Source: Acidobacteriota bacterium (GTDB taxonomy: Bacteria > Acidobacteriota > Blastocatellia > Pyrinomonadales > Pyrinomonadaceae). From it: a stretch of 35,220 bases of DNA. A program made the translations under genes and the position numbers. The stretch is from positions 1 through 35,220 of the forward strand of contig JAIVJG010000007.1 of assembly GCA_020200155.1 (NCBI GenBank). The letters are read 5' to 3'. Below the pieces are notes generated by a model that was not told the DNA's origin, did not search any database, and saw nothing but the letters and a program-made list of their open reading frames with translations. This document shows, piece after piece, positions 296 through 34,422 of the stretch (position 1 is the stretch's first letter; every line of letters starts with the position of its first letter).

Positions 296-345
296 CTTTT
301 CAATTTGCGATTTCTGGTCTTAAGGATTCAGTCGCAAATCGAAAG
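296..345. repeat. Intergenic inverted repeat, tuf-rpsJ
   Basis: Arms 296-310 and 332-345 share the core TTGCGA/TCGCAA with a flanking CTTTY. This is the TTGCGATTT type, seen again at 12811-12897 and 21444-21505. The left arm begins at the base after the tuf stop. Confidence 0.6.
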
Positions 346-362
346 TCTGGAATTTAAAAATC

Positions 363-686
363 ATGCTGAACGAAAAGATCAGAATCAGGCTCAAGGCATA
401 CGATCATCGTGTGCTGGATCAATCCACCTCGGAGATCGTCGAGACGGCGAAGCGCACGGGTGCGCGCGTGGCGGGGCCGATCCCGCTCCCGACCTCAAAG
501 AATAAGTGGACTGTTCTCAGGTCGCCGCACGTGGACAAGAAGTCGCGTGAGCAGTTCGAGATCAGGACGCACAAGCGCCTGATGGACATTCTCGACCCGA
601 CGCCGCAGACCGTTGACGCGCTGATGAAACTCGACCTGCCGGCGGGCGTGGATGTCGAGATCAAGGCATTCGGCAGAGACAGATAA
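363..686 (+). CDS. rpsJ: 30S ribosomal protein uS10 (S10/NusE)
   Basis: A 107-residue uS10, slightly longer than the usual 102-105. It sits in the 30S head and, with NusB, also acts in transcription antitermination (family knowledge). The sequence opens [20 protein letters not shown] and carries the conserved [17 protein letters not shown] block and the terminal [10 protein letters not shown]. It is the first gene of the S10 operon after tuf. The ATG is the only sensible start; no strong Shine-Dalgarno is visible upstream, where A-rich sequence and an inverted repeat lie. Confidence 0.97.
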
Positions 687-689
687 CAA

Positions 690-765
690 GGGATGAAGGA
701 TGAGGGATGAGGGATGAATAAAATACATCTCTTGTTCATCCCTCATCCCTTATCCCTCATCCCTT
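690..765. repeat. Heptamer inverted repeat, rpsJ-rplC
   Basis: The left arm (690-718) is a run of GGGATGA/AGGATGA 7-mers and the right arm (736-765) is its near-complete reverse complement. The loop is about 17 nt. The right arm ends one base before the GAGG Shine-Dalgarno of rplC (766-769). Confidence 0.85.
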
Positions 766-777
766 GAGGTTGTTGTG

Positions 778-1428
778 ATGGTTAACGGAATCATCGGTAA
801 AAAAGTCGGCATGACGCAGTTGTTCGCGGCGGACGGCAGGGTCGTCCCCGTGACGGTTATCAAGGCCGGGCCTTGCGTCGTGGTGCAGAAGAAGACCGCC
901 GCCGGGCCGGACGGTTACGACGCGGTGCAACTCGGACTCGTCGAAGAGAAGCCGGTCAAGCTCAAGAACGTCAACAAGCCGATGCGCGGCCACTTCGAGA
1001 AGACGGGCGGCGGCGTGCCTCCGACCCGCATCCTCAAGGAGCTTCGCGTCGAAGGCGCGAACGGCGAGGTCAACGTCGGCGACAAAGTTCTGGTTGACCA
1101 GTTCGCCGACGGCGACGCCATTGAGGTCATCGGAAAATCGAAGGGGCGCGGCTTCGCGGGCACGATCAAGCGGCACAACTTCAGCCGCGGCCCGGAGTCG
1201 CACGGCTCTATGAACGTGCGTGCGCCGGGTTCCATCGGCCAGTCGGCCTACCCCTCGCGCGTCATCAAGGGCACGCGTTCGTCGGGCCATATGGGCGACA
1301 AGCGCGTGACCGTCAGAGGTCTGACCGTGGCGCGCGTGGACGTGGAGAACAACCTGCTGATGGTGCGCGGCGCGGTGCCGGGCGCGAACGGCAGCGTCGT
1401 CGTCATCAAGAAATCGCAGAAGAAGTGA
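778..1428 (+). CDS. rplC: 50S ribosomal protein uL3
   Basis: A 216-residue uL3, an early-assembly protein near the peptidyl-transferase centre. It begins [16 protein letters not shown] and has the typical [20 protein letters not shown] and PGSIGQ segments. Gln155 corresponds to the glutamine that PrmB methylates in E. coli. An in-frame GTG lies one codon upstream at 775, but ATG 778 is 8 nt from GAGG (766-769) and is preferred. The stop TGA (1426-1428) lies inside the left arm of the next hairpin. Confidence 0.97.
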
Positions 1429-1493
1429 TAAGAGATGAGTGATAAGAAAAGACGACGGTTTGTCTTATCACTTATCACTTGTCTCTCATCGCT
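1424..1493. repeat. Heptamer inverted repeat, rplC-rplD
   Basis: Units are GTGATAA/GAGATGA in the left arm (1424-1447), with the complement TTATCAC/TCTCATC in the right arm (1464-1493). The rplC stop codon is part of the first unit. The same unit type recurs between rpsK and rpsD. Confidence 0.8.
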
Positions 1494-1508
1494 CGAACGG
1501 AGTGAGCT

Positions 1509-2222
1509 ATGCCTACCGTTAAGGTTCGCAATCTGAAGAACGAAGAGATCGGCGACCTCGATTTGTCGGACGCTGTGTTCGGCGCTGAGTTGAACGAATC
1601 GCTGATTCACGCGGCGGTGAAATCTCATCTGGCCGGCGCGCGTCAGGGCACTGTCGGGACGAAGACGCGCGGCGATGTGTCCGGCTCCGGCAAGAAGCTC
1701 TGGAAGCAGAAGGGGACAGGGCGCGCACGTATCGCCAGCATCCGCTCGCCACTCTGGAAGGGCGGCGGCAACGCGCACGGCCCGCAGGCGCGCGACTGGT
1801 CGCAGCCGCTGCCGAAAAAGATGCGGCGCGGCGCGTTGCGCTCCGCACTGTCGGAGCGGTTGCGCGAAGGAAACCTGCTCGTGGTTGACGAGTTCGTGCT
1901 GGAGAAGGCGAAGACGAAAGAGTTCATCGGCGCGCTCTCGACGCTCGAACTGGGCGGCAAGACGCTGCTCGTGGACAGGTTCGGCGACGACAACCCGCGT
2001 CTGGACAGCCTGCTGCTCGCCTCGCGCAACGTCAAGCGCGCGAAGGTCGTCAACAGCGCCGGCCTGAACATCTACGACGTGCTCTATCACGAAAAACTCG
2101 TCCTCTCTCGCGCCGCCGCCGAAGAGCTTTCGCGTGCGCTCGACCCGCAGTCGAAGCACGTCGCGGAGACGAACGACGACGCGGCGGAAGAGAGCAACGA
2201 ACAGGCGGAGGAGGCCGCGTAA
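1509..2222 (+). CDS. rplD: 50S ribosomal protein uL4
   Basis: A 237-residue uL4, longer than the usual 200-210. Its extended loop (residues about 58-95, including [20 protein letters not shown]) reaches the exit tunnel in known ribosomes. The last about 25 residues form an acidic Glu/Ala tail ([17 protein letters not shown]) outside the family core. In some bacteria L4 regulates the S10 operon; nothing in this sequence proves that here. The gene ends 4 nt before rplW. Confidence 0.97.
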
Positions 2223-2226
2223 AAAG

Positions 2227-2532
2227 ATGAGAACAGTTTGGGACATCATCAAAGCGCCGGTCATCACGGAGAAGGCGCTCGTGGCGAAAGAGGAGTCGCA
2301 GGACGGTCGGCAGCTTTTGACCTTCCGCGTTGACACACGCGCCACCAAGCCGGAAATCAAGTCCGCCATCGAAAAGATTTTCAACATACAGGTGGACACC
2401 GTGCGTACCATCAACTACATGGGCAAGAAGAAGCGGCAGGGGCGCTTCGAGGGCCGACGGCCTTCGTGGAAGAAAGCCTACGTCACGCTCAAGGCGGGAC
2501 AAGACCCGTTCGACTACGGCGAAAATATCTAA
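2227..2532 (+). CDS. rplW: 50S ribosomal protein uL23
   Basis: A 101-residue uL23 that sits at the polypeptide exit and docks SRP and trigger factor (family knowledge). It begins MRTVWDIIKAPVITEKAL and contains VDTVRTINYMGKKKR, the typical loop and strand. The reading frame is open upstream to 2134 but overlaps rplD there. ATG 2227, four bases after the rplD stop with GGAGGA-like sequence inside the rplD end, gives the normal N-terminus and suggests translational coupling. Confidence 0.96.
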   Translation: MRTVWDIIKAPVITEKALVAKEESQDGRQLLTFRVDTRATKPEIKSAIEKIFNIQVDTVRTINYMGKKKRQGRFEGRRPSWKKAYVTLKAGQDPFDYGENI

Positions 2533-2538
2533 CAGCCG

Positions 2539-2591
2539 TGACAGGTGACAAGATAAGAACTTGTTCCCACCTGTCACCTGTCACCTGTCAC
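2539..2591. repeat. Heptamer inverted repeat, rplW-rplB
   Basis: GTGACAG units in the left arm (2539-2553) pair with CTGTCAC units in the right arm (2560-2591). The right arm has about four units and the left only two, so the arms are unequal. The same unit type recurs between rpmD and rplO. Confidence 0.82.
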
Positions 2592-2602
2592 GAAATAAAG
2601 TT

Positions 2603-3433
2603 ATGGGCATCAAGAAACTGAGACCGACATCGCCTGCGCGTCGCTACCAGACGTACCTGACGCGCGACGAGCTGACGCCGGGCGCGAAGCCTGAGAGGGC
2701 TTTGCTCGAACCGAAGACGCGCATCTCCGGGCGCAACAACGACGGGCATATCACCGTGCGTCGTCGCGGCGGCGGCCACAAGCGCTTTTACCGGATCATA
2801 GATTTCAAGCGCAACAAGCCGGGCATTCCCGGTCGCGTGACGCAGATTGAGTACGACCCGAACCGCTCGGCGCACATCGCGCTCATCACCTACCTCGACG
2901 GCGAGAAGCGCTACATCATCGCGCCCGTCGGCCTTGAGGTCGGCAAGACCGTGATGAGCGGGCCGGAGGCCGATATCCTGCCGGGGAACGCCCTGCCAAT
3001 CCACAACATCCCGCTCGGCACGCAGATTCACAACATCGAAATGCGTCCCGGCAAGGGCGGGCAAATGGCGAGAAGCGCAGGCTCGTTCGCGCAACTCGTC
3101 GCGAAAGAGGGCGACTACGCGCAACTCCGCATGCCTTCGGGCGAAGTACGGCGCGTGCCCGTCGTCTGCATGGCGACCGTGGGGCAGGTCGGCAACGTCG
3201 AGCACGAGAACGTCTCTTACGGCAAGGCCGGACGCTCGCGCTGGCATGGTTTGCGCCCGAAGGTGCGCGGCGTCGCGATGAACCCCGTAGATCACCCGCA
3301 CGGCGGCGGTGAAGGCAAGACCAGCGGCGGCGGCCATCCCGTCACGCCCTGGGGCCAGCCGACGCGCGGCTACAAAACGCGCAAGAACAAACGCACGCAA
3401 AACATGATCGTGCGCGACAGAAGGAAGAAGTAA
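2603..3433 (+). CDS. rplB: 50S ribosomal protein uL2
   Basis: A 276-residue uL2, needed for subunit association and peptidyl transfer. It begins [20 protein letters not shown] and carries the universally conserved DHPHGGGEG at 230-238, whose histidine is functionally important in the family. The frame is open upstream to 2561 through the right arm of the hairpin, but ATG 2603 gives the family N-terminus. No good Shine-Dalgarno is visible upstream (AAATAAAG). The C-terminus [17 protein letters not shown] is normal. Confidence 0.97.
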
Positions 3434-3491
3434 GGAATGAAGGTAAGGAGGCGGTTGGAAGTAACAAACATCCCTCTGCCCTCATCCTTTT
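3432..3491. repeat. Degenerate inverted repeat, rplB-rpsS
   Basis: AAGGAATGAAGGTAAGGAGG in the left part pairs imperfectly with CCCTCTGCCCTCATCCTTTT on the right. The 7-bp phase is visible but eroded. It overlaps the rplB stop. Confidence 0.6.
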
Positions 3492-3514
3492 GAAGTGGAG
3501 CGAAGCGAAACGTT

Positions 3515-3808
3515 ATGGCACGTTCAGTTAAAAAAGGCCCGTTCATTGACGACTTTGTGCAGAAGGCTGTGGATCGCATCCGCCAGAGCGGCAACCGTCC
3601 GCCGGCTATTAAGACCTGGTCGCGCCGTTCAACGATCTCGCCCGACATGGTCGGGCTGACCTTCGGCGTCCACAACGGCAAGCGTCACATTCCCGTCTAC
3701 GTGACGGAGAACATGGTCGGACACAAGCTCGGCGAGTTCTCCCCGACGCGAACCTTCAAGGGGCATTCGGGCACGAAGGCTGAGAAGTCGTCGAAGCCGG
3801 CAAGATAG
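3515..3808 (+). CDS. rpsS: 30S ribosomal protein uS19
   Basis: A 97-residue uS19 in the 30S head that contacts uS13 and the A-site region. It starts [19 protein letters not shown] and has the conserved [17 protein letters not shown] and [16 protein letters not shown] motifs. It lies in the normal order between rplB and rplV, with hairpin elements on both sides. The upstream sequence AAGTGGAGCGAAGCG contains a GGAG about 15 nt before the ATG. Confidence 0.97.
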
Positions 3809-3814
3809 TTAATG

Positions 3815-3879
3815 GTAAATAGTCAATAGTAAATGGTGAATAGATAACAACCATTCACGATTTACTATTCACCATTTAC
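3815..3879. repeat. Heptamer inverted repeat, rpsS-rplV
   Basis: Arms 3815-3841 and 3853-3879 match at 24 of 27 positions and consist of GTAAATA/GTCAATA/GTGAAT 7-mers, with an 11-nt loop. GAGG, the rplV Shine-Dalgarno, begins at the base after the right arm (3880). Same unit type as 5181-5254, 6421-6495 and 10279-10350. Confidence 0.9.
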
Positions 3880-3891
3880 GAGGTTTAAGTG

Positions 3892-4380
3892 ATGGAAGCG
3901 AAAGCAAGCGCAAAATATCTCCACGGGTCGCCGCAGAAGGCTCGTCTCGTGATTGACATGATTCGTGGCAAGAGTCTGGGGCAGGCGCTGGCGATTTTGC
4001 AGTTCACGAATAAGCGCGCCGCAGGCCACATCGAAAAGTGCGTGCGCTCGGCGTGGGCCAACGCCAACGAGGCCGCCGAGAAGGCGAACGTCTCCGTTGA
4101 CCCGGACGAGTTGTTCGTCAAAGCCGCGTTCGTGGATCAGGGGCCGACGAAGAACCGCCGTCGTGTACGTCCCGCGCCGCAGGGCCGCGCCTATCGCGAG
4201 CAGAGACACTTCTGCCACGTGACCGTGCTGCTGGGGACTGACGGGAAAGAAGACGCGCCGGTGGGCGGCAAGAGCACTTCGGGAAAAAAGCGCGCCGCCG
4301 CGCCCGCGACCGCGACGAAGAAGAAAACAGTCGTCGCTTCAAAAACTAAGGCTGTCAAAGAAGAGACGGCTCAAGAATAG
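3892..4380 (+). CDS. rplV: 50S ribosomal protein uL22 with basic C-terminal tail
   Basis: A 162-residue protein. Residues 1-115 or so are uL22 (MEAKASAKYLHGSPQKARLV, RRRVRPAPQGRAYR), whose hairpin lines the exit tunnel. The last about 45 residues are a Lys/Ala/Thr-rich tail (KKRAAAPATATKKKTVVASK) absent from ordinary 110-residue uL22. A GTG at 3889 is in frame, but ATG 3892 is 8 nt from GAGG (3880-3883) and is preferred. The stop is followed by rpsC 16 nt later. Confidence 0.95.
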   Translation: MEAKASAKYLHGSPQKARLVIDMIRGKSLGQALAILQFTNKRAAGHIEKCVRSAWANANEAAEKANVSVDPDELFVKAAFVDQGPTKNRRRVRPAPQGRAYREQRHFCHVTVLLGTDGKEDAPVGGKSTSGKKRAAAPATATKKKTVVASKTKAVKEETAQE

Positions 4381-4396
4381 TTGAACGGAGAAGATT

Positions 4397-5176
4397 GTGG
4401 GTCAGAAAGTTCATCCTTACGGTTTCCGCCTCGGCTACAACAAAGACTGGCATTCGCACTGGTTCGCCAAAAAGCAGTACGGCGATTACCTGATCGAAGA
4501 CCTCAAGTTGAAGGCCACCTTGAAGGCTCGCTTCGCCGGCGCGGGCGTCTCGCACGTTGACGTTGAGCGCGCGGCCAACCGCCTCAAGCTCATCATCTAC
4601 ACGTCGCGCCCCGGCATCATCATCGGTCGCAAGGGCGCGGAGATTGACAAGCTCAAGGCCGACATCGCCTCGCGCACGGGCCGCGAAGTGCTGGTCTCGA
4701 TTCAGGAAATCCATAAGCCGGAACTGAACGCGCAGTTGCAGGCCGAGAAGATCGCGCAGCAGTTAGAGAAGCGCATCGCCTTTCGCCGCGCCATGCGTAA
4801 GACCGTCGAAGAGACTCTGCGCTTCGGCGGGCAGGGCATCAAGGTCAAGGTCGCAGGCCGCTTGAACGGCGCGGAGATCGCACGCAGCGAGTGGCACCTG
4901 CAAGGGCGTCTCCCACTGCACACACTGCGCGCCGACGTTGACTACGGCTTTACGGAAGCGCACACGACGTTCGGCGTGATCGGCGTCAAGGTCTGGATAT
5001 ATCGCGGTGAAATTCTCGACCCGAAGGCGGCGATGGCACGCGGCACACAGACCGACCCGATCAACGAGCCACGCCCCGAGCGCGGCAGCGACGGGCGACG
5101 CCCGCGCCCGCGCCGCGACGAAGGCGAAGGACGCCCGCGCGGCGACCGTGGGGGCCGGCCTCCCGGCAGAAGATAA
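4397..5176 (+). CDS. rpsC: 30S ribosomal protein uS3
   Basis: A 259-residue uS3 with an N-terminal KH domain (GIIIGRKG, residues 73-80) and the C-terminal domain ([29 protein letters not shown]). It forms part of the mRNA entry channel and has helicase activity together with uS4 (family knowledge). It uses a GTG start at 4397 with GGAG 6 nt upstream. Residues from about 226 form an Arg/Gly/Pro-rich, probably disordered tail ([18 protein letters not shown]) beyond the family core. Confidence 0.97.
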
Positions 5177-5180
5177 GCGA

Positions 5181-5254
5181 GTAAATGGTCAATGGTAAAT
5201 GGTGAATAGAGGGCTTCAGAGTCAGCCACCATTTGCTATTCACCATTTACCATT
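5181..5254. repeat. Heptamer inverted repeat, rpsC-rplP
   Basis: GTAAATG/GTCAATG/GTGAATA units in the left arm (5181-5209) pair with the right arm (5228-5254); a 19-nt block at 5191-5209 has an exact reverse complement in the right arm. A GAAGAGGG Shine-Dalgarno follows directly. Confidence 0.88.
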
Positions 5255-5269
5255 GAAGAGGGTTACATC

Positions 5270-5698: not shown

Positions 5699-5700
5699 TT

Positions 5701-5922
5701 ATGGCGAAGAGACGTGAAGAAATAGATCGCCTGCGCGATTTGTCGGACGCGGACTTGAAGGAAGAAGCGGCGCGCATCAAAGAGTCGCTCTTCCGGCTCA
5801 ACTTCAAGCTGGCGCTCGGCGACATGGACGCGGTTAAGACCGTGCGCCGCGAGAAAAAATCCCTCGCGCGCCTGCGGACTATGATGCGCCAGCGCGAGTT
5901 GGAGCAGGCGGCGACAAAGTAA
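5701..5922 (+). CDS. rpmC: 50S ribosomal protein uL29
   Basis: A 73-residue uL29, a small helical protein near the exit tunnel. It has the family pattern LRDLSDADLKEEAARIKESLFRLNFKLALG and a second helix of the VRREKKSLARLRTMMRQRE type. It follows rplP with a 2-nt gap, and the GGGAGG inside the end of rplP can serve as its Shine-Dalgarno. Length and position are normal. Confidence 0.95.
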   Translation: MAKRREEIDRLRDLSDADLKEEAARIKESLFRLNFKLALGDMDAVKTVRREKKSLARLRTMMRQRELEQAATK

Positions 5923-5923
5923 A

Positions 5924-5996: not shown

Positions 5997-6007
5997 AGAG
6001 GTTTGTA

Positions 6008-6421
6008 ATGGCAGAAGAGACGCAGGACAACAGTCAGGAAACGGAGCGCACGGGCGACGAGCAGGCAGCCGTGGTGGCGGCGGACGTGAAGTCTGGCGAG
6101 AGCCTCGCGCACGAGGTCGCGCCGGGCGTGGATTCGCAGGCGGGCAACGCCGCAGGCACGGAAGCCGGCAAGCGCGGGCATCGCGCGGAGAAAATCGGCA
6201 TCGTCGCCTCCGACAAGATGGAGAAGACGGTCGTGGTGCGCGTGGATCGCTTAATCAAGCACCCGAAGTATCGCCGCTACGTCCGCCGCACGTCCAAGTT
6301 CATGGCGCACGACGAGTCCGGCGCGACCATCGGCGACAAGGTACGCATCGTCGAGACGCGGCCCCTCTCGGCGCGCAAACGCTGGCGCGTCGTCGAGATC
6401 GTTCAGAAGGCACAGAAGTAG
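6008..6421 (+). CDS. rpsQ: 30S ribosomal protein uS17 with acidic N-terminal extension
   Basis: A 137-residue protein against about 80-90 for ordinary uS17. The conserved core begins near residue 61 (KIGIVASDKMEKTVVVRVDRL) and continues with HPKYRRYVRRTSKFMAHDE and RIVETRPLSARKRWRVVEI. The first about 55 residues are Glu/Asp/Ala/Gly-rich (MAEETQDNSQETERTGDEQ) and probably disordered. The start is supported by GAGG (5998-6001) 6 nt upstream, and no internal start would give the plain core. uS17 binds 16S rRNA early in assembly; the role of the extension is unknown. Confidence 0.95.
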   Translation: MAEETQDNSQETERTGDEQAAVVAADVKSGESLAHEVAPGVDSQAGNAAGTEAGKRGHRAEKIGIVASDKMEKTVVVRVDRLIKHPKYRRYVRRTSKFMAHDESGATIGDKVRIVETRPLSARKRWRVVEIVQKAQK

Positions 6422-6495
6422 TGAATGGTTAATGGTCAATAGTAAATGGATGAAGAGGGTTATTTCCATTTACCATTCACTGTTCACTATTTATC
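6421..6495. repeat. Heptamer inverted repeat, rpsQ-rplN
   Basis: GTGAATG/GTTAATG/GTCAATA/GTAAATG units on the left (6421-6450) pair with the right arm (about 6465-6495). It starts at the last base of the rpsQ stop and ends at the AGGAG Shine-Dalgarno of rplN (6496-6500). Confidence 0.85.
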
Positions 6496-8203: not shown

Positions 8204-8596
8204 ATGACCGATCCTATTGCCGACATGCTGACGCGTATGCGTAACGCGATTGCCGCGAAGCACTCGCGCGTGGACATCCCGGCGTCGAAACTGAAACTGG
8301 AGATTGCCCGCATCCTCAAGGAAGAGGGCTACATCAACAACTTCGTCATCAAGGGCGAGGGGCCGAAAAAGATGATCCGCATCTTCCTGCGCTACGACGC
8401 GCGCGGCACTTCTTCCATCTCGCACCTGTCTCGCGTCTCGCGCCCCGGTCGCCGCGTCTACATGGGCGCGACCGACATCCCGCGTGTGCTCGGCGGCTAC
8501 GGCGTCAACATCGTCTCGACCTCGCGCGGCCTGATGAGCGGCAAACGCGCACGCCGCGAGAACGTCGGCGGCGAAGTGCTGGCGGCAATCTATTAA
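8204..8596 (+). CDS. rpsH: 30S ribosomal protein uS8
   Basis: A 130-residue uS8, a central-domain assembly protein and, in E. coli, the repressor of the spc operon. It begins MTDPIADMLTRMRNAIAAKH and ends with the RNA-binding STSRGLMSGKRARRENVGGE block. Length is normal. The GGAGCTT upstream is a loose Shine-Dalgarno about 11 nt from the ATG. No S8-binding leader can be recognised by eye. Confidence 0.97.
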   Translation: MTDPIADMLTRMRNAIAAKHSRVDIPASKLKLEIARILKEEGYINNFVIKGEGPKKMIRIFLRYDARGTSSISHLSRVSRPGRRVYMGATDIPRVLGGYGVNIVSTSRGLMSGKRARRENVGGEVLAAIY

Positions 8597-8675
8597 GGGA
8601 TGAGGGATGAAGGATGAGGGATGAAGCGAACCGCGCTTGTCCTGTTTCATCCCTCATCCCTCCGCCCTCATCCTT
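8595..8675. repeat. Heptamer inverted repeat, rpsH-rplF
   Basis: GGGATGA/AGGATGA units on the left (8595-8625) pair with TCATCCC units on the right (8645-8675). It overlaps the rpsH stop and is the same unit type as 690-765. AGAGG for rplF starts at the right arm end. Confidence 0.85.
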
Positions 8676-10274: not shown

Positions 10275-10278
10275 GCAA

Positions 10279-10350
10279 GTAAATAGTAAATGGTCAAAGG
10301 TGAATAGAAAAACGGTCTTTCACCATTCACTGTTTACCATTGACCGTTGA
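10279..10350. repeat. Heptamer inverted repeat, rpsE-rpmD
   Basis: GTAAATA/GTAAATG/GTCAAAG/GTGAATA on the left pairs with CACCATTCACTGTTTACCAT on the right. The element ends just before the CGAGG of rpmD (10351-10355). Confidence 0.85.
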
Positions 10351-10361
10351 CGAGGTTTGAA

Positions 10362-10574: not shown

Positions 10575-10651
10575 CGTGACGGGTAGATCGTGACAGGTGA
10601 CAAGAAAGAAATCTTGTTTTGACCTGTCACCTGTTACCTATCACCATTCAC
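10575..10651. repeat. Heptamer inverted repeat, rpmD-rplO
   Basis: GTGACGG...GTGACAG GTGACAA on the left pairs with CTTGTTTTGACCTGTCACCT on the right. Same GTGACAG type as 2539-2591. The CGAGGTTTGAA that follows is identical to the one before rpmD. Confidence 0.82.
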
Positions 10652-12810: not shown

Positions 12811-12897
12811 TTTGAGTTGCGATTTTTAATTTTCGATTGAATGACAGCCGCGCCACCTGCGTAGTTCTTCCAATCAGAAACCAAAAATCGCAAATTG
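12811..12897. repeat. Inverted repeat, secY-adk
   Basis: TTGCGATTTTT on the left (within 12811-12840) pairs with AAAAATCGCAA on the right (within 12870-12897). TTGCGATTT type, as at 296-345. Confidence 0.65.
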
Positions 12898-14424: not shown

Positions 14425-14489
14425 TAGTGGGTCAGTTTCAAATTAGAGCACTGATAAATGCTGGCTCAGAATTTCAAACTGACCCACTA
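14425..14489. mobile_element. 65-bp MITE-like palindrome between map and the infA remnant
   Basis: Terminal arms 14425-14444 and 14470-14489 are reverse complements at 19 of 20 positions, beginning TAGTGGGTCAGTTT. The 25-nt centre has smaller GAGC/GCTC pairing. The element is flanked directly by TGCCGCCGCTCC (14413-14424) and TGCCGCCGCTGCTCC (14490-14504), which look like a target duplication with a 3-nt slip. It is AT-richer than the surrounding DNA and does not follow the 7-bp pattern of the other hairpins. No copy elsewhere in the window and no transposase. Confidence 0.55.
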
Positions 14490-15750: not shown

Positions 15751-15819
15751 GTGATAAGTAATAAGTGATAAGACAGAGCATTGGCTTTTTCTCATCACTC
15801 ATCACTTATCACTCATCAC
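15751..15819. repeat. Heptamer inverted repeat, rpsK-rpsD
   Basis: GTGATAA GTAATAA GTGATAA on the left (15751-15772) pairs with CTCATCACTCATCACTTATC on the right (15790-15819). Same type as 1424-1493. Confidence 0.85.
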
Positions 15820-17715: not shown

Positions 17716-17719
17716 AAGA

Positions 17720-17802
17720 AACGATAAATGCGGAATGCCGCAATGATGAATGAAGAAAATGCTTTTGTCTTTCATCCATCACTCATCATTTATCATTTCG
17801 GG
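17720..17802. repeat. Heptamer inverted repeat, rpoA-rplQ
   Basis: ACGATAAATGCGGAATGCCG and AATGATGAATGAA on the left pair with TTCATCCATCACTCATCATT on the right. Same AATGATG type as 29600-29689. Confidence 0.8.
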
Positions 17803-18744: not shown

Positions 18745-19440
18745 ATGAGCGATCAAGATCAAACTTCATCGTCCGGCAATGAACAAACAAGGAGCGCAGA
18801 GACGGAGCGTGGCGGCGACACCGGCACGGGAGAACGCGGCGGCGTCGGTCGCCACAGTGGGCGACGCAGGCGCGGGCGCACTTCAACTCAGCCGTCGCAG
18901 GGCCAGTCGCGCCGCGCGGAATCTTCGCTCAACCTTGAAGAACTGCGCGAGCTGACAGAGTTGTTCACGGAGCATCGCCTGACGGATTTCGAGTTCGAGA
19001 ACGCGGACATCCGCGTCCGCCTGAGCCGCAACCCCGCGCCGCAGGCAGGAGCGCAATCCGCCGCGCCGCCCCCCACGACGGCTACGCCTGCCTCGACCTC
19101 CGCCGCGCAGTCGGCGGGCGGCGAAGCGGCTTCGTCGTCAACCGCCCCGTCCGGCGCGGGCGCGTCGTCCGGGACGAGTCACGCCGAGGCGAAGGAAGAA
19201 GAACTGCACATCATCACGTCGCCGATTGTCGGGACGTTCTATCGCGCGTCGTCGCCCAACGCCGACTCATTCGTCAAGGCGGGCAGCCACGTCGAGCACG
19301 ACACGGTCGTCTGCATCATCGAGGCGATGAAATTGATGAACGAGATACAGGCCGAGACGACGGGGACGGTCGAGAAAATCTACGTCGAGAACGGCCAGCC
19401 GGTCGAGTTCGGCCAGCCGCTGTTCGGAATCAAAAAGTAG
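18745..19440 (+). CDS. accB: Biotin carboxyl carrier protein of acetyl-CoA carboxylase
   Basis: A 231-residue BCCP, the biotin-carrying subunit for malonyl-CoA synthesis. The C-terminal biotinyl domain (about 153-231) has EAMKLMNE at 193-200 with K196 as the biotin site. The helical segment LNLEELRELTELFTEHRLTD (63-82) and the Ala/Pro/Ser linker are typical. The first about 60 residues are an extra Gly/Arg-rich segment (GRHSGRRRRGRTSTQ). ATG 18745 has GAGG 10 nt upstream; the longer open frame upstream runs through the hairpin. Confidence 0.95.
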   Translation: MSDQDQTSSSGNEQTRSAETERGGDTGTGERGGVGRHSGRRRRGRTSTQPSQGQSRRAESSLNLEELRELTELFTEHRLTDFEFENADIRVRLSRNPAPQAGAQSAAPPPTTATPASTSAAQSAGGEAASSSTAPSGAGASSGTSHAEAKEEELHIITSPIVGTFYRASSPNADSFVKAGSHVEHDTVVCIIEAMKLMNEIQAETTGTVEKIYVENGQPVEFGQPLFGIKK

Positions 19441-19516
19441 TTCAAAGTCTAAGGTTCAAAGTCAGAAAGTCGCACGAGGGCTTTCCGACTTTGAACCTTA
19501 GACTTTGAACTTTGAA
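19441..19516. repeat. Heptamer inverted repeat, accB-accC
   Basis: Arms 19441-19469 and 19481-19509 match at 28 of 29 positions, built from TTCAAAG/TCTAAGG 7-mers, with an 11-nt loop. A further TTTGAAC unit extends the right arm to 19516. It is the best preserved element in the window. Confidence 0.92.
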
Positions 19517-19522
19517 CTTGAG

Positions 19523-25799: not shown

Positions 25800-25843
25800 A
25801 GCCACGCGGACGGGAACGTTCCCATCCGCGTGGCTTTTCGTTT
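25800..25843 (+). terminator. Intrinsic terminator of the dksA-like gene
   Basis: AGCCACGCGGACGGGAAC (25800-25817) pairs with the segment 25818-25834 almost perfectly, the stem closing at AACGTT. TTTTCGTTT follows. It is the textbook arrangement. Confidence 0.88.
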
Positions 25844-27656: not shown

Positions 27657-27719
27657 GTTGAGGGGCGACAGGAAAGAGCCTGTTTTATGTTGTCACCCGT
27701 CGCCCATCGCCCATCGCGG
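27657..27719. repeat. Heptamer inverted repeat, pip-HNH gene
   Basis: GTTGAGGGGCGACAGG on the left pairs loosely with GTCGCCC ATCGCCC ATCGCGG on the right. A T-rich run (TTTTGTTTTT) follows, so it could also end transcription of pip. Confidence 0.6.
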
Positions 27720-28679: not shown

Positions 28680-28765
28680 GGGGAAGCAAAGTGAAAAGGT
28701 AGAAGGCAGAGGGGAAGACACAATCTTCTCCTTTCTCTTTCTACCTTTTCACTTTGCCTTCTTCC
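28680..28765. repeat. Heptamer inverted repeat between tatA and the methyltransferase
   Basis: Left arm 28680-28717 and right arm 28725-28765 share an exact 19-nt core (GCAAAGTGAAAAGGTAGAA). The 7-bp phase shows as AAGTGAA AAGGTAG AAGGCAG. It lies between convergent genes, so it may also terminate both. Confidence 0.85.
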
Positions 28766-29593
28766 TTACTCCGCTTTTCGTCCGACGATGATGGTCGCCT
28801 TGATCGAGAGCGTGTAGTCCGCTCCCTGCCGCTCGTCGTCAATGATGCGCTCGACCTCGCCGAGCACTTCCGCCCGCGTCGCCTCGTCTTCAGGCAAAAA
28901 CTCAAGCCAGTTGCCGAGCAGAAAGTCTCTGACCAGCGGCGCGCTCAGGAAGGCTTCCCCGGACGCGAAGTCAAATTCTTCCGTGCGTGTCCAGGATTGA
29001 ACGTCGTTCAGTGCCTCGCGCCCGGCCAGAACCTCCACGTCCGAGACGGTCGGGAGTGCGCTGATGAGCGCCTCGACTCCGGCGGCCTGCTCCGCGTGGC
29101 CTGTGTTGGCGAGCGCCTCCCAGTAGACCGAGAAGAACTCGCCGAAACTCGACGCGGTCGTCAGGTTAAGCGCGACGGTCGCGCCCGGCGCGGCGACGCG
29201 CACCATCTCCGAGAGCATCTCCGGCAAACGCTCCGGCGCGACCAGCGAGGCGTCGCCGACGACAAGATCGAACTGTTCGTCCTCGAACGAGAGCGCCTCC
29301 AACTGCCCGTGCTGAAATTCAGCGCCCGACTCTTTGACCGCCGCCGCCTTGACGCGCGAAAGCTCGAGGCGCGCTTCGCTCTCGTCAACGCAGACGAAAG
29401 TCACGCCCTGCCCGGCGCGTTTCTTAAGCGCCAGCGCGTGCCCGCCCGTGCCCGCCGCGACGTAAATCGCACGCCCCTTCGACGGTAACTTCACATGCTC
29501 GTCAATCAACTCCGCGAACCTCTCGCCCCAATCAGTCGCGACGTAAAGGTCGTGAAGAAACGCCAGTTTCTTATCCGTCTTCAGTGTGCTCAT
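28766..29593 (-). CDS. Class I SAM-dependent methyltransferase
   Basis: A 275-residue protein with the class I fold: motif I IYVAAGTGGHALAL (43-56), the acidic end of strand 2 at D70 (VCVDESEARLE) and FDLVVGDASL (108-117). The substrate is not predictable from the sequence. ATG at 29591-29593 is chosen; the frame is open 26 codons further upstream but runs through the repeat element. It follows rarA on the same strand and may be co-transcribed. Convergent with tatA. Confidence 0.85.
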   Translation of the reverse strand: MSTLKTDKKLAFLHDLYVATDWGERFAELIDEHVKLPSKGRAIYVAAGTGGHALALKKRAGQGVTFVCVDESEARLELSRVKAAAVKESGAEFQHGQLEALSFEDEQFDLVVGDASLVAPERLPEMLSEMVRVAAPGATVALNLTTASSFGEFFSVYWEALANTGHAEQAAGVEALISALPTVSDVEVLAGREALNDVQSWTRTEEFDFASGEAFLSAPLVRDFLLGNWLEFLPEDEATRAEVLGEVERIIDDERQGADYTLSIKATIIVGRKAE

Positions 29594-29599
29594 AACGGC

Positions 29600-29689
29600 A
29601 AAATGATGAATGCGGAATGATGAATGATGAATGAGAAGCACGCAGATTGTCTTTGATTCATCATTCCGCATTCATCACTCATCATTTTC
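29600..29689. repeat. Heptamer inverted repeat between rarA and the methyltransferase
   Basis: A 21-nt block (29605-29625) made of three 7-mers (GATGAAT GCGGAAT GATGAAT) has an exact reverse complement at 29656-29676. The outer right arm overlaps the rarA 3' end and encodes its last residues and stop on the minus strand. Confidence 0.88.
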
Positions 29690-30979
29690 TTTCTCTTCTT
29701 CCCAGTATTTCCTTCCCTGTAAGCGTTCGGGCAGGCATTGCATCTCTTCGCGTGCGTGTGTGTCGTCGTGGACGTAGCGGTAATTCTTTCCGTAGCCCGC
29801 GCGCTTCATTAAGGGCGTGACGGCGTTGCGAAGATGCAGCGGGACGGGTTCGCGCGCCGTCTCTCCGGCGTCTTCTGCGGCGGCGTGGTAGGCGCGCTTG
29901 ATGGCGTTGGACTTCGGCGCGTGCGCCAGATAGACGGTCGCCTGCGAGAGCGGGTAGAGAGCTTCGGGCAGGCCGATGAGTTGCGTGATCTGCGCGGCTG
30001 CGGCGGCCTGCACCATCGCCTGCGGGTCGGCCAGTCCAACGTCTTCCGACGCGAGGATGCAGAGGCGGCGCGCGATGAAGACCGGATCGGCCCCGCCCTC
30101 GATAAGGCGCGCGAGCCAGTAGAGCGCGGCATTCACGTCCGAGTTGCGGAGCGACTTGATGAGCGCGGAGGCGAGATTGTAATGCTCTTCGCCTCCCTTG
30201 TCGTAAGCGTAGCGCGCACGTCCCAACGCCTCGATGATTGTCTCTGTCGTGATGTGTCGCGCGCCCTTTTTGTCTGGGACGGTTGATTCGACCGCCGCTT
30301 CGAGAGCCGACAGCGCCACACGCGCGTCGCCGCCGGACGCGTGCGCGACGCGCGCGATCAACTCGTCGGGCACGTCCGGGTGGAGGTTGGCGAGGCCGCG
30401 TTCCTCATCGTTGAGCGCGCGACGCAGAAGCGTGTTGATGTCCTCTTCGGTGAGCGGTTCGAGCGTCAGGACACGGCTGCGCGAGAGGAGCGCGCCGATA
30501 ACTTCAAACGAAGGGTTCTCGGTCGTCGCGCCGATGAGCGTGACGGTTCCGTCCTCGACCGCAGGCAGGAGCGCGTCCTGCTGCGCCTTGTTGAAGCGAT
30601 GGATTTCGTCAACGAAGAGGATCGTTCGCTGGCCGTCCCGCTTGCGCTCGCGCGCTTCGGCGATGGCGGCGCGCAAATCTTTGACGCCTGAGAAGACCGC
30701 CGAGAGCGCGACGAAATGCGCGCCGCCCCTGTGCGCGAGCAGCCGCGCGAGCGTCGTCTTGCCGGTGCCGGGCGCGCCCCACAGGATGAGCGAAGGCAGG
30801 CTGCCCTCGCCTTCGATGAGACGGCGCAGGACGCGCCCCTCGCCGATCAGGTGCCGCTGCCCGACGAACTCGTTGAGCGTGCGCGGGCGCATCCTCTCGG
30901 CCAGCGGCGCGCTCTCGTCCGGCGGCGGAGTTTCTTCTTCCGGCTCCGCGAAAAGTCTCTGGTCAGCGCGACGCGGCAT
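29675..30979 (-). CDS. rarA: Replication-associated recombination protein RarA (MgsA)
   Basis: A 434-residue AAA+ ATPase related to clamp loaders that acts at stalled forks. Walker A is GAPGTGKTT (68-76) and Walker B ILFVDEIHRF (120-129, D124/E125); sensor 1 is in GATTENPSFE and the C-terminal tetramerisation region has EDVGLADPQA and HLRNAVTPLMK. The N-terminus MPRRADQRLFAEPEEE is a short extra acidic stretch. The last residues ENDE come from a repeat-element arm. Length is normal. Confidence 0.95.
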   Translation of the reverse strand: MPRRADQRLFAEPEEETPPPDESAPLAERMRPRTLNEFVGQRHLIGEGRVLRRLIEGEGSLPSLILWGAPGTGKTTLARLLAHRGGAHFVALSAVFSGVKDLRAAIAEARERKRDGQRTILFVDEIHRFNKAQQDALLPAVEDGTVTLIGATTENPSFEVIGALLSRSRVLTLEPLTEEDINTLLRRALNDEERGLANLHPDVPDELIARVAHASGGDARVALSALEAAVESTVPDKKGARHITTETIIEALGRARYAYDKGGEEHYNLASALIKSLRNSDVNAALYWLARLIEGGADPVFIARRLCILASEDVGLADPQAMVQAAAAAQITQLIGLPEALYPLSQATVYLAHAPKSNAIKRAYHAAAEDAGETAREPVPLHLRNAVTPLMKRAGYGKNYRYVHDDTHAREEMQCLPERLQGRKYWEEEKENDE

Positions 30980-31062
30980 GTTTTATTAATCCTGCGCTCC
31001 GGGGAATAAAGCCGGCGACTCCGCGACCGCCTTTGCCTGAAAAGGGCCGGGCGCGGAAAATT

Positions 31063-31245
31063 ATGAGCAAGGGGAACAGGCAAAAGCTTAACACAAATTC
31101 GTTTGAATCAGAGAAAAGGGAAGACAACTTTGGGGAGTACAAAAACTTGCACGGACGTTATAGAATCTTGCACGGAACGTCTCTGCACATCATTTCGTAT
31201 ATCGAAGCAAGCCGGCGCAAAAGGCAGGGAATAGTCATCCTGTAA
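31063..31245 (+). CDS. Possible small protein, unrecognised
   Basis: A 60-residue open frame starting MSKGNRQKLNTNSFESEKRE, hydrophilic and basic, with the internal repeat LHGR/LHGT. No family recognised, and GGAAAA upstream is a poor Shine-Dalgarno. It lies in the about 295-nt gap between rarA and the small membrane protein. The gap may instead be regulatory DNA. Low confidence. Confidence 0.25.
   Translation: MSKGNRQKLNTNSFESEKREDNFGEYKNLHGRYRILHGTSLHIISYIEASRRKRQGIVIL
31146..31176 (+). repeat. Direct repeat with 21-bp period
   Basis: CTTGCACGGA occurs at 31146-31155 and again at 31167-31176, two helical turns apart, and each copy is followed by (A)CGT. It could be a paired binding site upstream of the small membrane protein gene, or part of a coding repeat. 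Confidence 0.45.
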
Positions 31246-31274
31246 GCGCGCGGCGGATTTGTTGAGGTGAAATT

Positions 31275-31481
31275 ATGAAAGACACAAAGAACATGCTTCG
31301 TATCGTCGGAATCATTCTGCTCGGAATCTTCGCGCTCGTAGTCGTGACCCCTCTGGTCTTAAAAGCTGTCGGCATTGTCGTCCTGACCGCCATCGGCCTG
31401 GCAATCCTGCTTATCAAGCTGGGAGTCGTCGTCGCCGTCGGCTACCTGATTTTGGTGGGCGTGCGTGCCGTGCTGCGTTGA
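31275..31481 (+). CDS. Small two-helix membrane protein, unknown function
   Basis: A 68-residue protein with two hydrophobic segments (about 9-30, VGIILLGIFALVVVTPLVL; about 34-62, IVVLTAIGLAILLIKLGVVV) separated by a short turn, with a basic end (VGVRAVLR). GAGGT lies about 7 nt upstream of the ATG, so translation is well supported. No family was recognised. A terminator-like hairpin follows about 105 nt downstream. Confidence 0.7.
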   Translation: MKDTKNMLRIVGIILLGIFALVVVTPLVLKAVGIVVLTAIGLAILLIKLGVVVAVGYLILVGVRAVLR

Positions 31482-31586
31482 AGACGCCGGACAGTTTTTA
31501 CATTCTCTCCGGGTGACGATTTAACCGGATGGATTCAGATGAGAGCGCCGCCCGGCGAATTCCCGGAGAGTTCCATAGGACAATAC

Positions 31587-31639
31587 AATGTGCCGCTCAA
31601 CTGACACTCGTTGGTTGGGCGGCACATTTTACTTTTCGG
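31587..31639 (+). terminator. Terminator-like hairpin after the small membrane protein
   Basis: Arms 31587-31601 and 31614-31628 match at 14 of 15 positions around a 12-nt loop, followed by the T-rich TTACTTTTC. The T-rich part overlaps a possible promoter of the next gene. Confidence 0.65.
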
Positions 31640-31655
31640 CGATCTCCCCTATTAT
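31628..31655 (+). promoter_or_regulatory. Possible promoter of the lipoprotein gene
   Basis: TTTACT (31628-31633), 16-nt spacer, TATTAT (31650-31655), about 50 nt before the chosen start. The -35 is a weak match. Confidence 0.4.
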
Positions 31656-31704
31656 CTCACCGGACAAATCGTTTTGCTGGACATCAATTGCGGGGAGGCG
31701 AGGC

Positions 31705-32451
31705 ATGGACGTGTGCGACTTGCGTGAGAGAAGTATCTTCGGGAGGGCAGGCGCGGGCGACATGCGTGCGTTCGGGGCGTGGCTCTCGTGTTTGATTCTG
31801 GCGCTGCTTGCGGGGTGCGCGGTGCCCGGAGGGCCGCCCGTGGGCAAAGGTGAAACGCCGTCGCCAACGATGGAAAGCACGCCGCGCGAATCGCACGCCC
31901 CTGCGTCGCCTTCCCCGGCTGCCACCCTGTCCGAATCCGGGCCGGGGAAGACTAATCTCACCGGCAAAGACCGGCGGGCGTGGCGCGCCGTGCTCAAGTG
32001 GCCCGACGATTGTGAAGACGCATTCGAGCGGACGATGGATAGAGAGACGGCGGGGCTGGAATTCTACGAGTTGGCTTCCGGTCGGTATCTCGTCGAGATA
32101 AAATGCACGAATGGAGCTTATCAAGGCTACCAGTTCTACTCGTATCTGGACGAAACGAAGTCGCCGCCTGCGGCGAAGTTGCTCACCTTTACCACTTACG
32201 AATCCGAGGACGACGACAAGTCGGAAAAGAAGAAGGTCGAGGAAGTTTGGGGGTTGCCTGACTTTGACGCGAAGGCGAAATCGTTGAAGATTCTGAACAA
32301 GTATCGAGGGCCGGGTGATTGCGGGTCGCTGGCGACTTACGAGTTCCGGGAGGGCGTGCCGTCGCTGAAAGAGTTCAGGTTGAAATCGAAGTGCGACGGC
32401 AAAGGCGGCGGGCATCCTGAGCGGTGGGAGAAAATCGTCCCGTCTCCCTGA
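31705..32451 (+). CDS. Probable lipoprotein, DUF1176-like C-terminal region
   Basis: A 248-residue protein. A hydrophobic stretch (FGAWLSCLILALLAGC) ends in a lipobox with C38, followed by a Pro/Ser/Thr-rich linker, so it is likely an outer- or inner-membrane lipoprotein. The rest has CTNGAYQGYQFYSYLDE and KYRGPGDCGSLATYEFREG, which resembles DUF1176-type proteins; this match is from memory and tentative. ATG 31705 has GGAGG about 7 nt upstream; ATG 31762 would give a more ordinary signal peptide length. Function unknown. Confidence 0.75.
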   Translation: MDVCDLRERSIFGRAGAGDMRAFGAWLSCLILALLAGCAVPGGPPVGKGETPSPTMESTPRESHAPASPSPAATLSESGPGKTNLTGKDRRAWRAVLKWPDDCEDAFERTMDRETAGLEFYELASGRYLVEIKCTNGAYQGYQFYSYLDETKSPPAAKLLTFTTYESEDDDKSEKKKVEEVWGLPDFDAKAKSLKILNKYRGPGDCGSLATYEFREGVPSLKEFRLKSKCDGKGGGHPERWEKIVPSP

Positions 32452-32630
32452 CGCGATTGGTCGGAAGTCGAATACCTCTCAATGCCGGGTGGATGAATTC
32501 ACCGTCCACGTCAACGCGCCTGCCCTGGTAAAAAGGTTGCAATTATTCATCTGGTAAGATAGTTTTTACCCCTCGCAAGGTAGGTTTCAAACCAGCTCTT
32601 CTTAGCTCTTCACACCAAAGGAATGTCACC

Positions 32631-33206
32631 ATGAAATTTGATCGGAAACAATTCTTCGACGAATACAAATCCCGCTTCAACGAGAAGCTTAGCCAGAGTC
32701 AGGTTGACGGCATCGAACAGTTGCTGGGCTTCATCGAAAACGACCCCGCACTGCTTGACGTGCGCTGGATCGCCTACATGATGGCGACGGTCAAGCACGA
32801 GTGCGCCGAACGTTGGCATCCGATTGAGGAGTTCGCCAGCGGGAAGCAGTACGAAGGCCGCGCCGATCTGGGCAACACGGTGAAAGGCGACGGGCCGAGA
32901 TTCAAGGGACGCGGCTACGTGCAGATCACGGGACGCGGCAACTATCGCAAGTTTTCGCAGCGGCTCAGCGTTGACCTCGTCAGCAACCCGCTGCTCGCCC
33001 TCGACCCCGGAATCAGCTACAAGATCGCCAGCCTCGGCATGCGGCAAGGCTTGTTCACGGGCAAGGCGCTGGTAGACTTCATACATGACTCCGGTTCTGA
33101 TTACAGTAACGCCCGCCGCATCATCAACGGCCTCGACAAGGCCGACAAAATCAAGGGACACGCCGAGAAGCTTGAACTGGCACTGCGGGCCAGCCAAATC
33201 TCCTGA
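32631..33206 (+). CDS. GH19-like chitinase/endolysin domain protein
   Basis: A 191-residue protein with the GH19-type pattern: YMMATVKHECAERWHPIEEF (50-69, candidate catalytic E57), YEGRADLGNT and FKGRGYVQITGRGNYRKFS. Family members cleave chitin or, in phages and bacteria, peptidoglycan. It lacks a signal peptide, as in phage endolysins that need a holin or a special release route. No holin or phage gene is near. AAAGGA is 8 nt upstream of the ATG. Confidence 0.88.
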   Translation: MKFDRKQFFDEYKSRFNEKLSQSQVDGIEQLLGFIENDPALLDVRWIAYMMATVKHECAERWHPIEEFASGKQYEGRADLGNTVKGDGPRFKGRGYVQITGRGNYRKFSQRLSVDLVSNPLLALDPGISYKIASLGMRQGLFTGKALVDFIHDSGSDYSNARRIINGLDKADKIKGHAEKLELALRASQIS

Positions 33207-33208
33207 GT

Positions 33209-33249
33209 TGGCCGACGCCGCCCGCATCCGTGCGGCGGGCGGCTGGCCG
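33209..33249. terminator. Bidirectional hairpin between convergent genes
   Basis: GCCGCCCGC (33217-33225) and GCGGGCGGC (33235-33243) form an exact 9-bp stem inside a GGCC/GGCC outer pair. It lies between the GH19-like gene and ychF, which converge. No long T-run on either strand. Confidence 0.55.
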
Positions 33250-33251
33250 GC

Positions 33252-34352
33252 TCACACGTTGAAGCGGAAGTGAACCACGTCGCCTTCCCGCATCACATAC
33301 TCTTTGCCTTCCAGCCGCAGCAGCCCCTGTTCGCGCGCGGCGGCGTAAGAACCGACGCGCAGCAGTTCGCCGTAGTTGATGACTTCGGCGCGGATGAAGC
33401 CGCGCTCGATGTCGGAGTGGATTGTGCCGGCGGCCTGCGGAGCGCGCGTGCCCTGCCGTGTCGTCCACGCGCGCACCTCCTTTTCGCCCGCCGTCAAAAA
33501 CGACATCAGGCCGAGCAGCCGGTAGGCGCTCTTAATCAGGTCGTCCACGCCGCTGCCTTCGACTCCGATTGATGAGAGATAGCCGCGCCTGTCTTCGGGC
33601 GAGAGCGCAACGAGTTCGGCCTCGATTTGCGCGCAGATGACGACACACTCCGCGCCCTCTGCCGCCGCGATTTCCCGGACGGCTGCGACGTGCGTATTCG
33701 ACTGGGGGTCTGCGAGCGTCGCCTCGTCCACGTTGGCGGCGTAGATGGTCGGCTTCATCGTCAGCAGGAAAAGGTTGCGCGCGGCGGCACGCTCCGCGTC
33801 GTCGAGCGCGACGATGCGCGCGGGCTTCCCGTCGGCGAGCGCGGTCAGCAGCTTGTCTATAACTTCGATCTCGACGCGTGCGGCCTTGTCGCCGCTCTTG
33901 GCCGTCTTCTGCGCGCGTTCGCGCCGGCGCTCGGCGGTCGCGAGGTCTGCGAGCGCCAGTTCGATCTGGATCGTCTCGATGTCGCGGCGCGGGTCAACCG
34001 AGCCTTCGACGTGGATCACGTTCTCGTCCTCGAAGCAGCGGACGACCTGAACAACAGCGTCGGTTTCGCGGATGTTGGCGAGGAACTGGTTGCCGAGGCC
34101 CTCGCCTTTTGACGCGCCGCGCACCAGCCCCGCGATGTCGAGGAACTCGACCGTGGCGGGGACGATGGTTTGCGTTTTAACCAGCTTCGCCAGCGGCTCA
34201 AGCCGCTCGTCGGGGACGGGGACGACGCCGACGTTAGGCTCAATGGTGGCGAAAGGATAGTTAGCGGCGAGCGCCGACTGCTGCGCTGTGAGCGCGTTGA
34301 AAAGCGTGGACTTGCCGACGTTCGGCAGACCGACAATACCTGCACGGAGCAT
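33252..34352 (-). CDS. ychF: Redox/stress-related ATPase YchF (OLA1)
   Basis: A 366-residue Obg-like P-loop NTPase. The P-loop GLPNVGKST (8-16), the DIAGLVRGAS switch and the NVDE motif in place of the GTPase NKxD, which explains preference for ATP in the family, are all present. The C-terminal TGS domain has GTIHSDIERGFIRAEVINYG and ends REGDVVHFRFNV. It binds ribosomes and is linked to oxidative stress in other bacteria. Length is normal. Confidence 0.96.
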   Translation of the reverse strand: MLRAGIVGLPNVGKSTLFNALTAQQSALAANYPFATIEPNVGVVPVPDERLEPLAKLVKTQTIVPATVEFLDIAGLVRGASKGEGLGNQFLANIRETDAVVQVVRCFEDENVIHVEGSVDPRRDIETIQIELALADLATAERRRERAQKTAKSGDKAARVEIEVIDKLLTALADGKPARIVALDDAERAAARNLFLLTMKPTIYAANVDEATLADPQSNTHVAAVREIAAAEGAECVVICAQIEAELVALSPEDRRGYLSSIGVEGSGVDDLIKSAYRLLGLMSFLTAGEKEVRAWTTRQGTRAPQAAGTIHSDIERGFIRAEVINYGELLRVGSYAAAREQGLLRLEGKEYVMREGDVVHFRFNV

Positions 34353-34372
34353 GAATCAAACCTCAAGAATAA

Positions 34373-34422
34373 AGATGTCAGACGATAGACGACGAAAACG
34401 GTGTCCGGCGAACCTGACATCT
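34373..34422. repeat. Inverted repeat upstream of ychF
   Basis: AGATGTCAG (34373-34381) and CTGACATCT (34414-34422) are exact complements. The left side continues ACGATAGACGACG with a 7-bp phase (GATGTCA GACGATA GACGACG). Confidence 0.6.

Follow-up and report, generated by a model that had tools for sequence, protein, structure and literature searches.

The gaps between genes in a 35,220-nt stretch of a Pyrinomonadaceae genome (class Blastocatellia; Acidobacteriota bacterium, contig JAIVJG010000007.1, positions 1 to 35,220; the whole stretch is called the window here) hold hairpins whose arms are built of 7-bp units, which raises the question of what these elements are and how they came to stand where they do. 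The window belongs to a 4.25-Mb draft genome and carries the ribosomal-protein operon (rpsJ to rplQ) with further genes behind it. The original prediction, made from the letters of the window, described at least 25 gaps with inverted repeats of one architecture and many unit sequences, which we call words. We find that the hairpins form a genome-wide class, that they stand directly behind stop codons, and that close relatives differ by wholesale replacement of the words at unchanged sites, where a hairpin is kept; this pattern resembles a hitherto undescribed type of very small mobile DNA.

The 7-bp period and the palindrome form

Inverted repeats were scored without gaps (+1 for a match, -2 for a mismatch) and were regarded as strong at a score of at least 12 and as loose at a score of at least 9. 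Among the 42 window gaps of at least 30 bp, a strong inverted repeat was found in 15 and a score of at least 9 in 24, which means that the predicted count is nearly reached at the loose threshold only. A 7-bp tandem array was present in 16 gaps, an array or a strong inverted repeat in 20, and both in 11 of the 16 gaps with an array. The arms had been described as runs of 7-mers; the period-7 signal is indeed sharp, but a demonstrable 7-bp period is found in only about half of the window inverted repeats. The best pair, predicted to match at 28 of 29 positions (19441-19509), is real and extends further, with 30 of 31 positions paired between 19439-19469 and 19481-19511 (score 28), and the pair predicted to start at 29605 is paired at 22 of 22 positions (29604-29625 with 29656-29677). 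A search of Rfam gave 0 matches above the gathering score in the window.

The period was also measured in a wider sample of the same genome (390 kb, 217 gaps). Exact 6-mers in its gaps recurred 311 times at lag 7, 238 times at lag 14 and 128 times at lag 21, compared with mostly 4-34 times at other lags, and no peak at lags 7, 14 and 21 was seen in the genes or the shuffled gaps of this sample. Tandem runs at score 10 numbered 61 for period 7 and 5 for period 9 (both 0 in shuffles), and 0-2 for the other non-multiple periods. The weaker 9-bp period coexists with the 7-bp class in these gaps (for example GGAAGTTTT). A strong hairpin occurred in 52 of the 217 gaps compared with 1 in shuffles; the contigs were partly picked among ones known to hold a word, which biases this density upwards, whereas the comparison of periods is unbiased. 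The genome contains the pattern GTGATRAGTGATRA 81 times and its reversed control not once. The expected enrichment of period 7 in other gaps of the genome is therefore strong, and the hairpins, first taken as a feature of a ribosomal operon, are instead genome-wide, as the word counts in relatives given below also indicate.

The same build was seen in 221 hairpins from the ribosomal-protein gaps of relatives, where the best internal period of the left arm was 7 in 183 of the 206 measurable cases; the picture of one architecture with many words holds. The purine-rich left arm that had been thought constant does not, with 89 purine-left and 84 pyrimidine-left cases among 181 combinations of genome and word. 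What is constant instead is a left arm with more G than C (131 combinations, the opposite in 34; p=1e-14). Stops in all frames, another proposed property of the units, occur in only 56 of 256 left arms, and 91 arms contain no stop at all.

Replacement of words and copies with sharp ends

We compared the operon in twenty other Pyrinomonadaceae genomes from 18 genera. Most of these relatives have hairpins in the same ribosomal-protein gaps, made of other words (GATGAAT, GAGTCTG, AGTTTTC, TAGCTGT, CCGTAAA, ATTTCCG, AGTTTCA and others). The match score of an arm was 17.5 with its own partner and 7.6 with arms of orthologous gaps (p=2e-38), and an identical word was found in 49 of 1239 orthologous pairs. 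With one mismatch allowed, orthologous gaps agreed in their word at a frequency of 0.48 where rplC nucleotide identity was at least 88%, and of 0.27, 0.20 and 0.09 at successively lower identity. Each genome has a word repertoire of its own: the same word was shared by 9.9% of element pairs within a genome compared with 1.8% between genomes. Gap length is kept while the words change. There are also empty (2-20 bp) and filled (80-110 bp) versions of a gap. The gaps rplD-rplW (filled in G010), rplR-rpsE (G025) and rplV-rpsC (G012) measure 2-26 bp in most genera compared with 85-105 bp, with a hairpin, in one. Among the species of genus g10, three have an rplC-rplD gap of 9 bp and others one of about 78 bp. 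Words were not clustered along the chromosome of the window (permutation p=0.76), which speaks against regional spread within an operon.

Nearly all Pyrinomonadaceae tested show the 7-bp excess in ribosomal-protein gaps, as do one genome from a different Blastocatellia family and several further Acidobacteriota. The excess is missing from G021 and G022, from several families of Blastocatellia and from nearly all Firmicutes tested. A Pelotomaculum operon has weak arrays and no hairpins.

Genomes G020 and G082 belong to one genus (rplC 93.4% identical), and the words differ in most of their hairpin-bearing ribosomal-protein gaps, whereas most hairpin-free gaps align well. In about a dozen of these gaps, G082 has hairpins of the GTGACAA type and G020 has AACGATG and several other words, so that one family stands in place of another in the same gap. 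Genome-wide, the AACGATG word ACGATGAACGATGAA has 211 matches in G020 compared with 2 in G082, and the GTGAC word GTGACRRGTGACRRGTGAC has 13 in G020 compared with 812 in G082. Because the reversed control of the GTGAC pattern gives 12 matches in G020, the 13 matches there are about background.

The AACGATG copies of G025 and G020 (n=41) were selected by their inner bases only. They form an 81-bp element with arms of about 30 nt and a loop of about 20 nt, and their conservation falls from about 0.95 to about 0.4 abruptly at both ends, where the consensus on both sides is AAACGATG. This family thus has sharp-ended copies at dozens of loci. Two 81-bp copies on different contigs of G025 are 100% identical, and relatives of the family occur in 23 of 104 genomes of the Pyrinomonadaceae. 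In G015, the long GTGAC elements have a common core, three of them being inverted, and three GATTTTG elements have related loops, one of them inverted. The sharp-ended, identical and core-sharing copies suggest that elements are copied and do not only grow in place. Plasmids gave no match to the AACGATG element, and phages gave none to the hairpin at 684-770.

Nested elements were seen in G015 (L206; L199-L205), in which arms of the GTGAC word surround hairpins built from different words (AGTTTCA, ATTTTTA); this looks like insertion of one element into the loop of another. A CACCGCAGAGG / CCTCTGCGGTG inverted repeat encloses or adjoins some AACGATG elements (flanks of L213, L216 and L252 in G025); it is perhaps another dispersed repeat, with 8-9-bp units. 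The flanks of AACGATG copies form a strong inverted repeat in 3 of 41 cases compared with 0.65 expected, a difference that is suggestive at most of insertion favouring older hairpins.

Complementary change between the arms, which the original prediction had called for, was found at two levels. The third heptad of the 41 AACGATG copies is variable (AGTAGGA, AGTCGGA, AGTATGA, ACGCGGA, ACGATGA), and it is the same in both arms in 26 copies compared with 7.7 expected (5000 permutations, maximum 17); this mirroring can be explained by copying of whole subfamilies as well as by template switching. Arm lengths also change together between congeners, as predicted by slippage and template switching. 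In three congeners (rplC 93.5-96% identical), the paired arrays measure 44/45, 71/78 and 86/92 nt in the rpmD-rplO gap, and 31/24, 58/57 and 37/50 nt in the rpsC-rplP gap. Template switching is known to homogenise the arms of inverted repeats and to invert the spacer (PMC8604942). A mirror-order test with permuted heptads gave 18.8 compared with 16.1 and is biased, because the arms had been chosen for matching. Comparisons by register shift and arm swap share this bias, and we relied on the third-heptad test instead.

Position behind stop codons and origin of the elements

Samples of three genomes yielded 46 elements from tandem gaps (62 kb in total), 12 from convergent gaps (15 kb) and 3 from divergent gaps (29 kb). 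Measured from the stop codon, elements begin at a median of 4-7 nt, even with the next start 100-460 nt away, and the stop codon often falls within the first 7-bp unit. In tight operons, the far edge spares the ribosome-binding site. The predicted mRNA hairpins begin inside the footprint of a terminating ribosome. In the adk-map gap of G001, G010, G015 and G020, the 3' end of adk enters the heptad array, and the last codons and the stop are array units. In front of many start codons stands a small palindrome whose loop contains the Shine-Dalgarno core (GCGAACGGAGTGAGC, TTTACGGAGTAAA, CTCACGGAGTGAG; window 1492-1508 and similar sites; G015, G025 and G012), and 4 of 6 copies of GCGAACGGAGTGAGC in G015, 3 of 3 in G025 and 2 of 2 in G012 are on the ribosomal-protein contig.

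We consider it likely that the hairpins are many families of small dispersed palindromes that were copied to stop-proximal sites and whose arms are homogenised by slippage and template switching. Such elements would be non-coding and about 55-200 bp long, the arms of each family consisting of imperfect 7-bp units of its own word. Copies would be placed directly 3' of stop codons, mostly between co-directional genes, by a transposition-like or template-copying process, and slippage and template switching between the arms would set the number of units and keep the arms complementary. Slippage or template switching had been suggested from the outset, and the arms do change together, but slippage in situ alone cannot account for so many words, because a word recurs throughout a genome, is spread in sharp-ended elements and is exchanged wholesale for another between congeners. 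More tentatively, the elements may constitute a class of mobile DNA set by symmetry and the 7-bp period and not by sequence, in which a copying process would make palindromes of any word, put them behind stops and periodically sweep the genome with a new word that replaces the old one at the same sites.

Several observations weigh against the copying of dispersed palindromes. Movement is read from the comparison of sequences, none having been observed directly. Neither a parent transposon nor a mobiliser was found, though no systematic search for an autonomous copy was made. Reverse transcriptase (PF00078) gave no match in G010, G015, G020 and G025, and Y1_Tnp (PF01797) gave none in G010, G011 and G034, of which G010 and G034, drafts about 90% complete, are element-rich. 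At the 41 AACGATG copies, no target-site duplication was detected (0-2 at k of at least 3, near expectation, offsets 14-16). The fourth heptad of these copies is mirrored no more than by chance, and with any register allowed the arms of one element scored 18.6 compared with 19.0 for arms of different elements of the same word. The similarity of loops was 5.6 for copies of the same word compared with 4.6 for different words, which suggests that most copies are old or that arms are copied or maintained better than loops.

As drivers, the Y1 transposases associated with repetitive extragenic palindromes (REP-associated tyrosine transposases, RAYT) and reverse transcriptase were tried and rejected; they show no correlation with the elements and are missing from some of the richest genomes.

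The alternative that survives best is that the hairpins are mRNA structures that evolved in place: selection would keep a hairpin behind the stop, its sequence would drift, slippage would give the 7-bp units, and nothing would move. The strong predicted mRNA folds (-23 to -60 kcal/mol, z -3 to -11) are consistent with this explanation, as are the constant site behind stops, the gap length that is kept while words change, and the coordinated change in arm length. However, RNA-level selection would favour G.U mismatches, and on the mRNA strand these (126) do not outnumber A.C mismatches (175), which gives no indication that RNA pairing itself is conserved. The identical, sharp-ended 81-bp copies at different loci and the switch of words at many loci at once between congeners also argue against it, and we regard evolution in place as unlikely.

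Very unlikely, in our judgement, are REP-like elements, their hairpin-forming pairs (REPIN) or miniature elements with terminal inverted repeats, moved by IS200/IS605-type tyrosine transposases (RAYT, or terminal-inverted-repeat-associated tyrosine transposases, TIRYT). These too are small, high-copy palindromes outside genes; TIRYTs have been reported in Acidobacteria (PMC3733652), and 49 of 60 relatives have Y1_Tnp matches. Yet such a match is lacking in the element-rich genomes G010 and G034, no GTAG or CGTC tetranucleotide tag occurs at the AAACGATG ends of the resolved AACGATG family (the one family tested), and each clade has dozens of unrelated words.

Heptanucleotide simple-sequence repeats that chance to form inverted pairs, of the kind known as short tandemly repeated repetitive (STRR) sequences in cyanobacteria or as GGGAATC repeats in Xanthomonas, are a still poorer candidate. 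They have the same unit length, intergenic location and lineage-specific words, and some convergent pairs exist in Xanthomonas (Rehm et al., PMC4692102); here, however, the hairpin is the rule, copies have a fixed length and sharp ends, there are few units and these are imperfect, and the elements stand close to stop codons. Ordinary intrinsic terminators would also give hairpins behind stops in tandem and convergent gaps but are scarcely credible, as the sites are internal to ribosomal-protein operons, a Shine-Dalgarno-like GAGG or GGAG of the ribosome-binding site, and not a T tract, comes after the 3' arm, and terminator-like sites were not in excess (22 compared with 24.1 in shuffles).

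For dispersed palindromes copied behind stops, the main cellular consequence is most likely a strong mRNA hairpin, which, to judge from the predicted folds, could make the upstream message more stable or insulate one cistron from the next. A selfish or neutral element tolerated at the single permissive spot is equally consistent with the data.

Window hairpins and comparison with known systems

Coordinates below are given without strand assignment. The rpsJ-rplC gap holds a hairpin at 687-766 (word GGGATGA) with 32-bp arms, which begins directly after the TAA stop and has a predicted RNA fold of -60.3 kcal/mol (z -11). The hairpin of the rplC-rplD gap (1423-1494; GTGATAA/GAGATGA), for which an RNA fold is also predicted, has the rplC stop TGA inside its array, and other genera have other words in this gap. 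Pairing, gap survey and predicted RNA fold agree on the hairpins in the gaps rplW-rplB (2537-2592; GTGACAG), rpsS-rplV (3805-3879; GTAAATA/GTCAATA/GTGAATA), rpsC-rplP (5181-5256; GTAAATG/GTCAATG), rpsQ-rplN (6420-6491; GTGAATG/GTTAATG), rpsH-rplF (8596-8673; GGGATGA) and rpsE-rpmD (10278-10351; GTAAATA/GTCAAAG), and 3' of rpsK (15751-15819; GTGATAA/GTGATGA), where the element adjoins the stop-codon side of a 172-bp gap. They also agree on a hairpin in a convergent gap (28686-28757; degenerate words of AAAGTGA/AAAGGTA type) and on one between two minus-strand genes (29602-29682; ATGATGA/ATGCGGA). The hairpin with the 30/31 pairing (19439-19519; TTCAAAG/TCTAAGG) lies before a biotin carboxylase gene and overlaps the upstream stop codon. 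The gap survey yielded the rpmD-rplO hairpin (10593-10651; GTGACAG), a degenerate hairpin in the rpoA-rplQ gap (17718-17799; ATGATGA/ATGATAA type) and a 7-bp array without a good opposite arm (27692-27717; CCCATCG/CCCGTCG). Weak hairpins stand before rpsJ (298-344; TTTGCGATTT type, score 10, no detectable 7-bp run) and between secY and adk (12817-12893; ATTTTT/GCGATTT type, score 11).

An inverted repeat without a 7-bp period in the map-rpmJ gap (14425-14489; TAGTGGGTCAGTTTCAAATT, 19 of 20 positions paired) looks like a different miniature element. At 25800-25835, an 18-bp near-perfect palindrome without a loop, followed by a T-rich stretch, precedes a comF-like gene and is probably an ordinary terminator.

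Across this bacterial family, structure and position are kept and sequence is repeatedly replaced, even inside the ribosomal-protein operon. Intergenic sequence in the clade is thus no simple molecular clock, and hairpins should not be read as conserved RNA from alignment alone. The elements offer a test bed for three questions: the preference of bacterial tandem repeats for 7 bp, the spread of small palindromes in the absence of any recognisable transposase, and the effect of a hairpin directly behind a stop codon in an operon. The literature covered, which included few subscription papers, contained nothing on intergenic repeats of Pyrinomonadaceae or on heptamer palindromes. Nor did it describe a class of palindromes that combines many words, a 7-bp period, stop anchoring and the replacement of whole word sets between congeners, although absence there is no proof.

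Heptanucleotide repeats are known as STRR sequences of filamentous cyanobacteria, GGGAATC in Xanthomonas and GGGGA(C/T)T in Nostoc (PMC4692102), and as TAACTGA in Beggiatoaceae, where a set may overlap with the preceding gene's stop codon (PMC4679880). The over-representation of heptamers in bacteria and its possible link to the contact size of the polymerase are also known (PMC4692102 and references there). The elements described here resemble these tandem repeats in their 7-bp units, intergenic location, many loci per genome, lineage-specific words, and length and sequence that vary between close relatives. They differ in being stop-tied palindromes of fixed size with many coexisting words, whereas the known repeats are direct, with one or few words per genome and some inverted pairs in Xanthomonas; the proposed distinction from the direct-repeat heptamers of cyanobacteria is upheld, and it extends to those of Beggiatoaceae and most Xanthomonas cases. 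Small mobile palindromes are known as well (PMC3116915). Like REP and REPIN sequences (PMC3116915, PMC3733652), the elements are small, non-autonomous, extragenic, hairpin-forming palindromes in high copy that can differ between close relatives. The differences are that the resolved family lacks a GTAG or CGTC tag, that element-rich genomes show no dependence on Y1, that the arms have a 7-bp period and that each clade contains very many families. With miniature inverted-repeat transposable elements they share short terminal inverted repeats, sharp ends in multiple copies (AACGATG family), a non-coding nature, gene-adjacent sites and transcription, but no target-site duplication was detected and the arms make up most of the element. 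Finally, template-switch mutation at quasipalindromes (PMC8604942, PMC7202029) predicts homogenised arms and inverted spacers, both of which fit; unlike the elements found here, it is a mutational process at existing inverted repeats that makes no copies at new loci.

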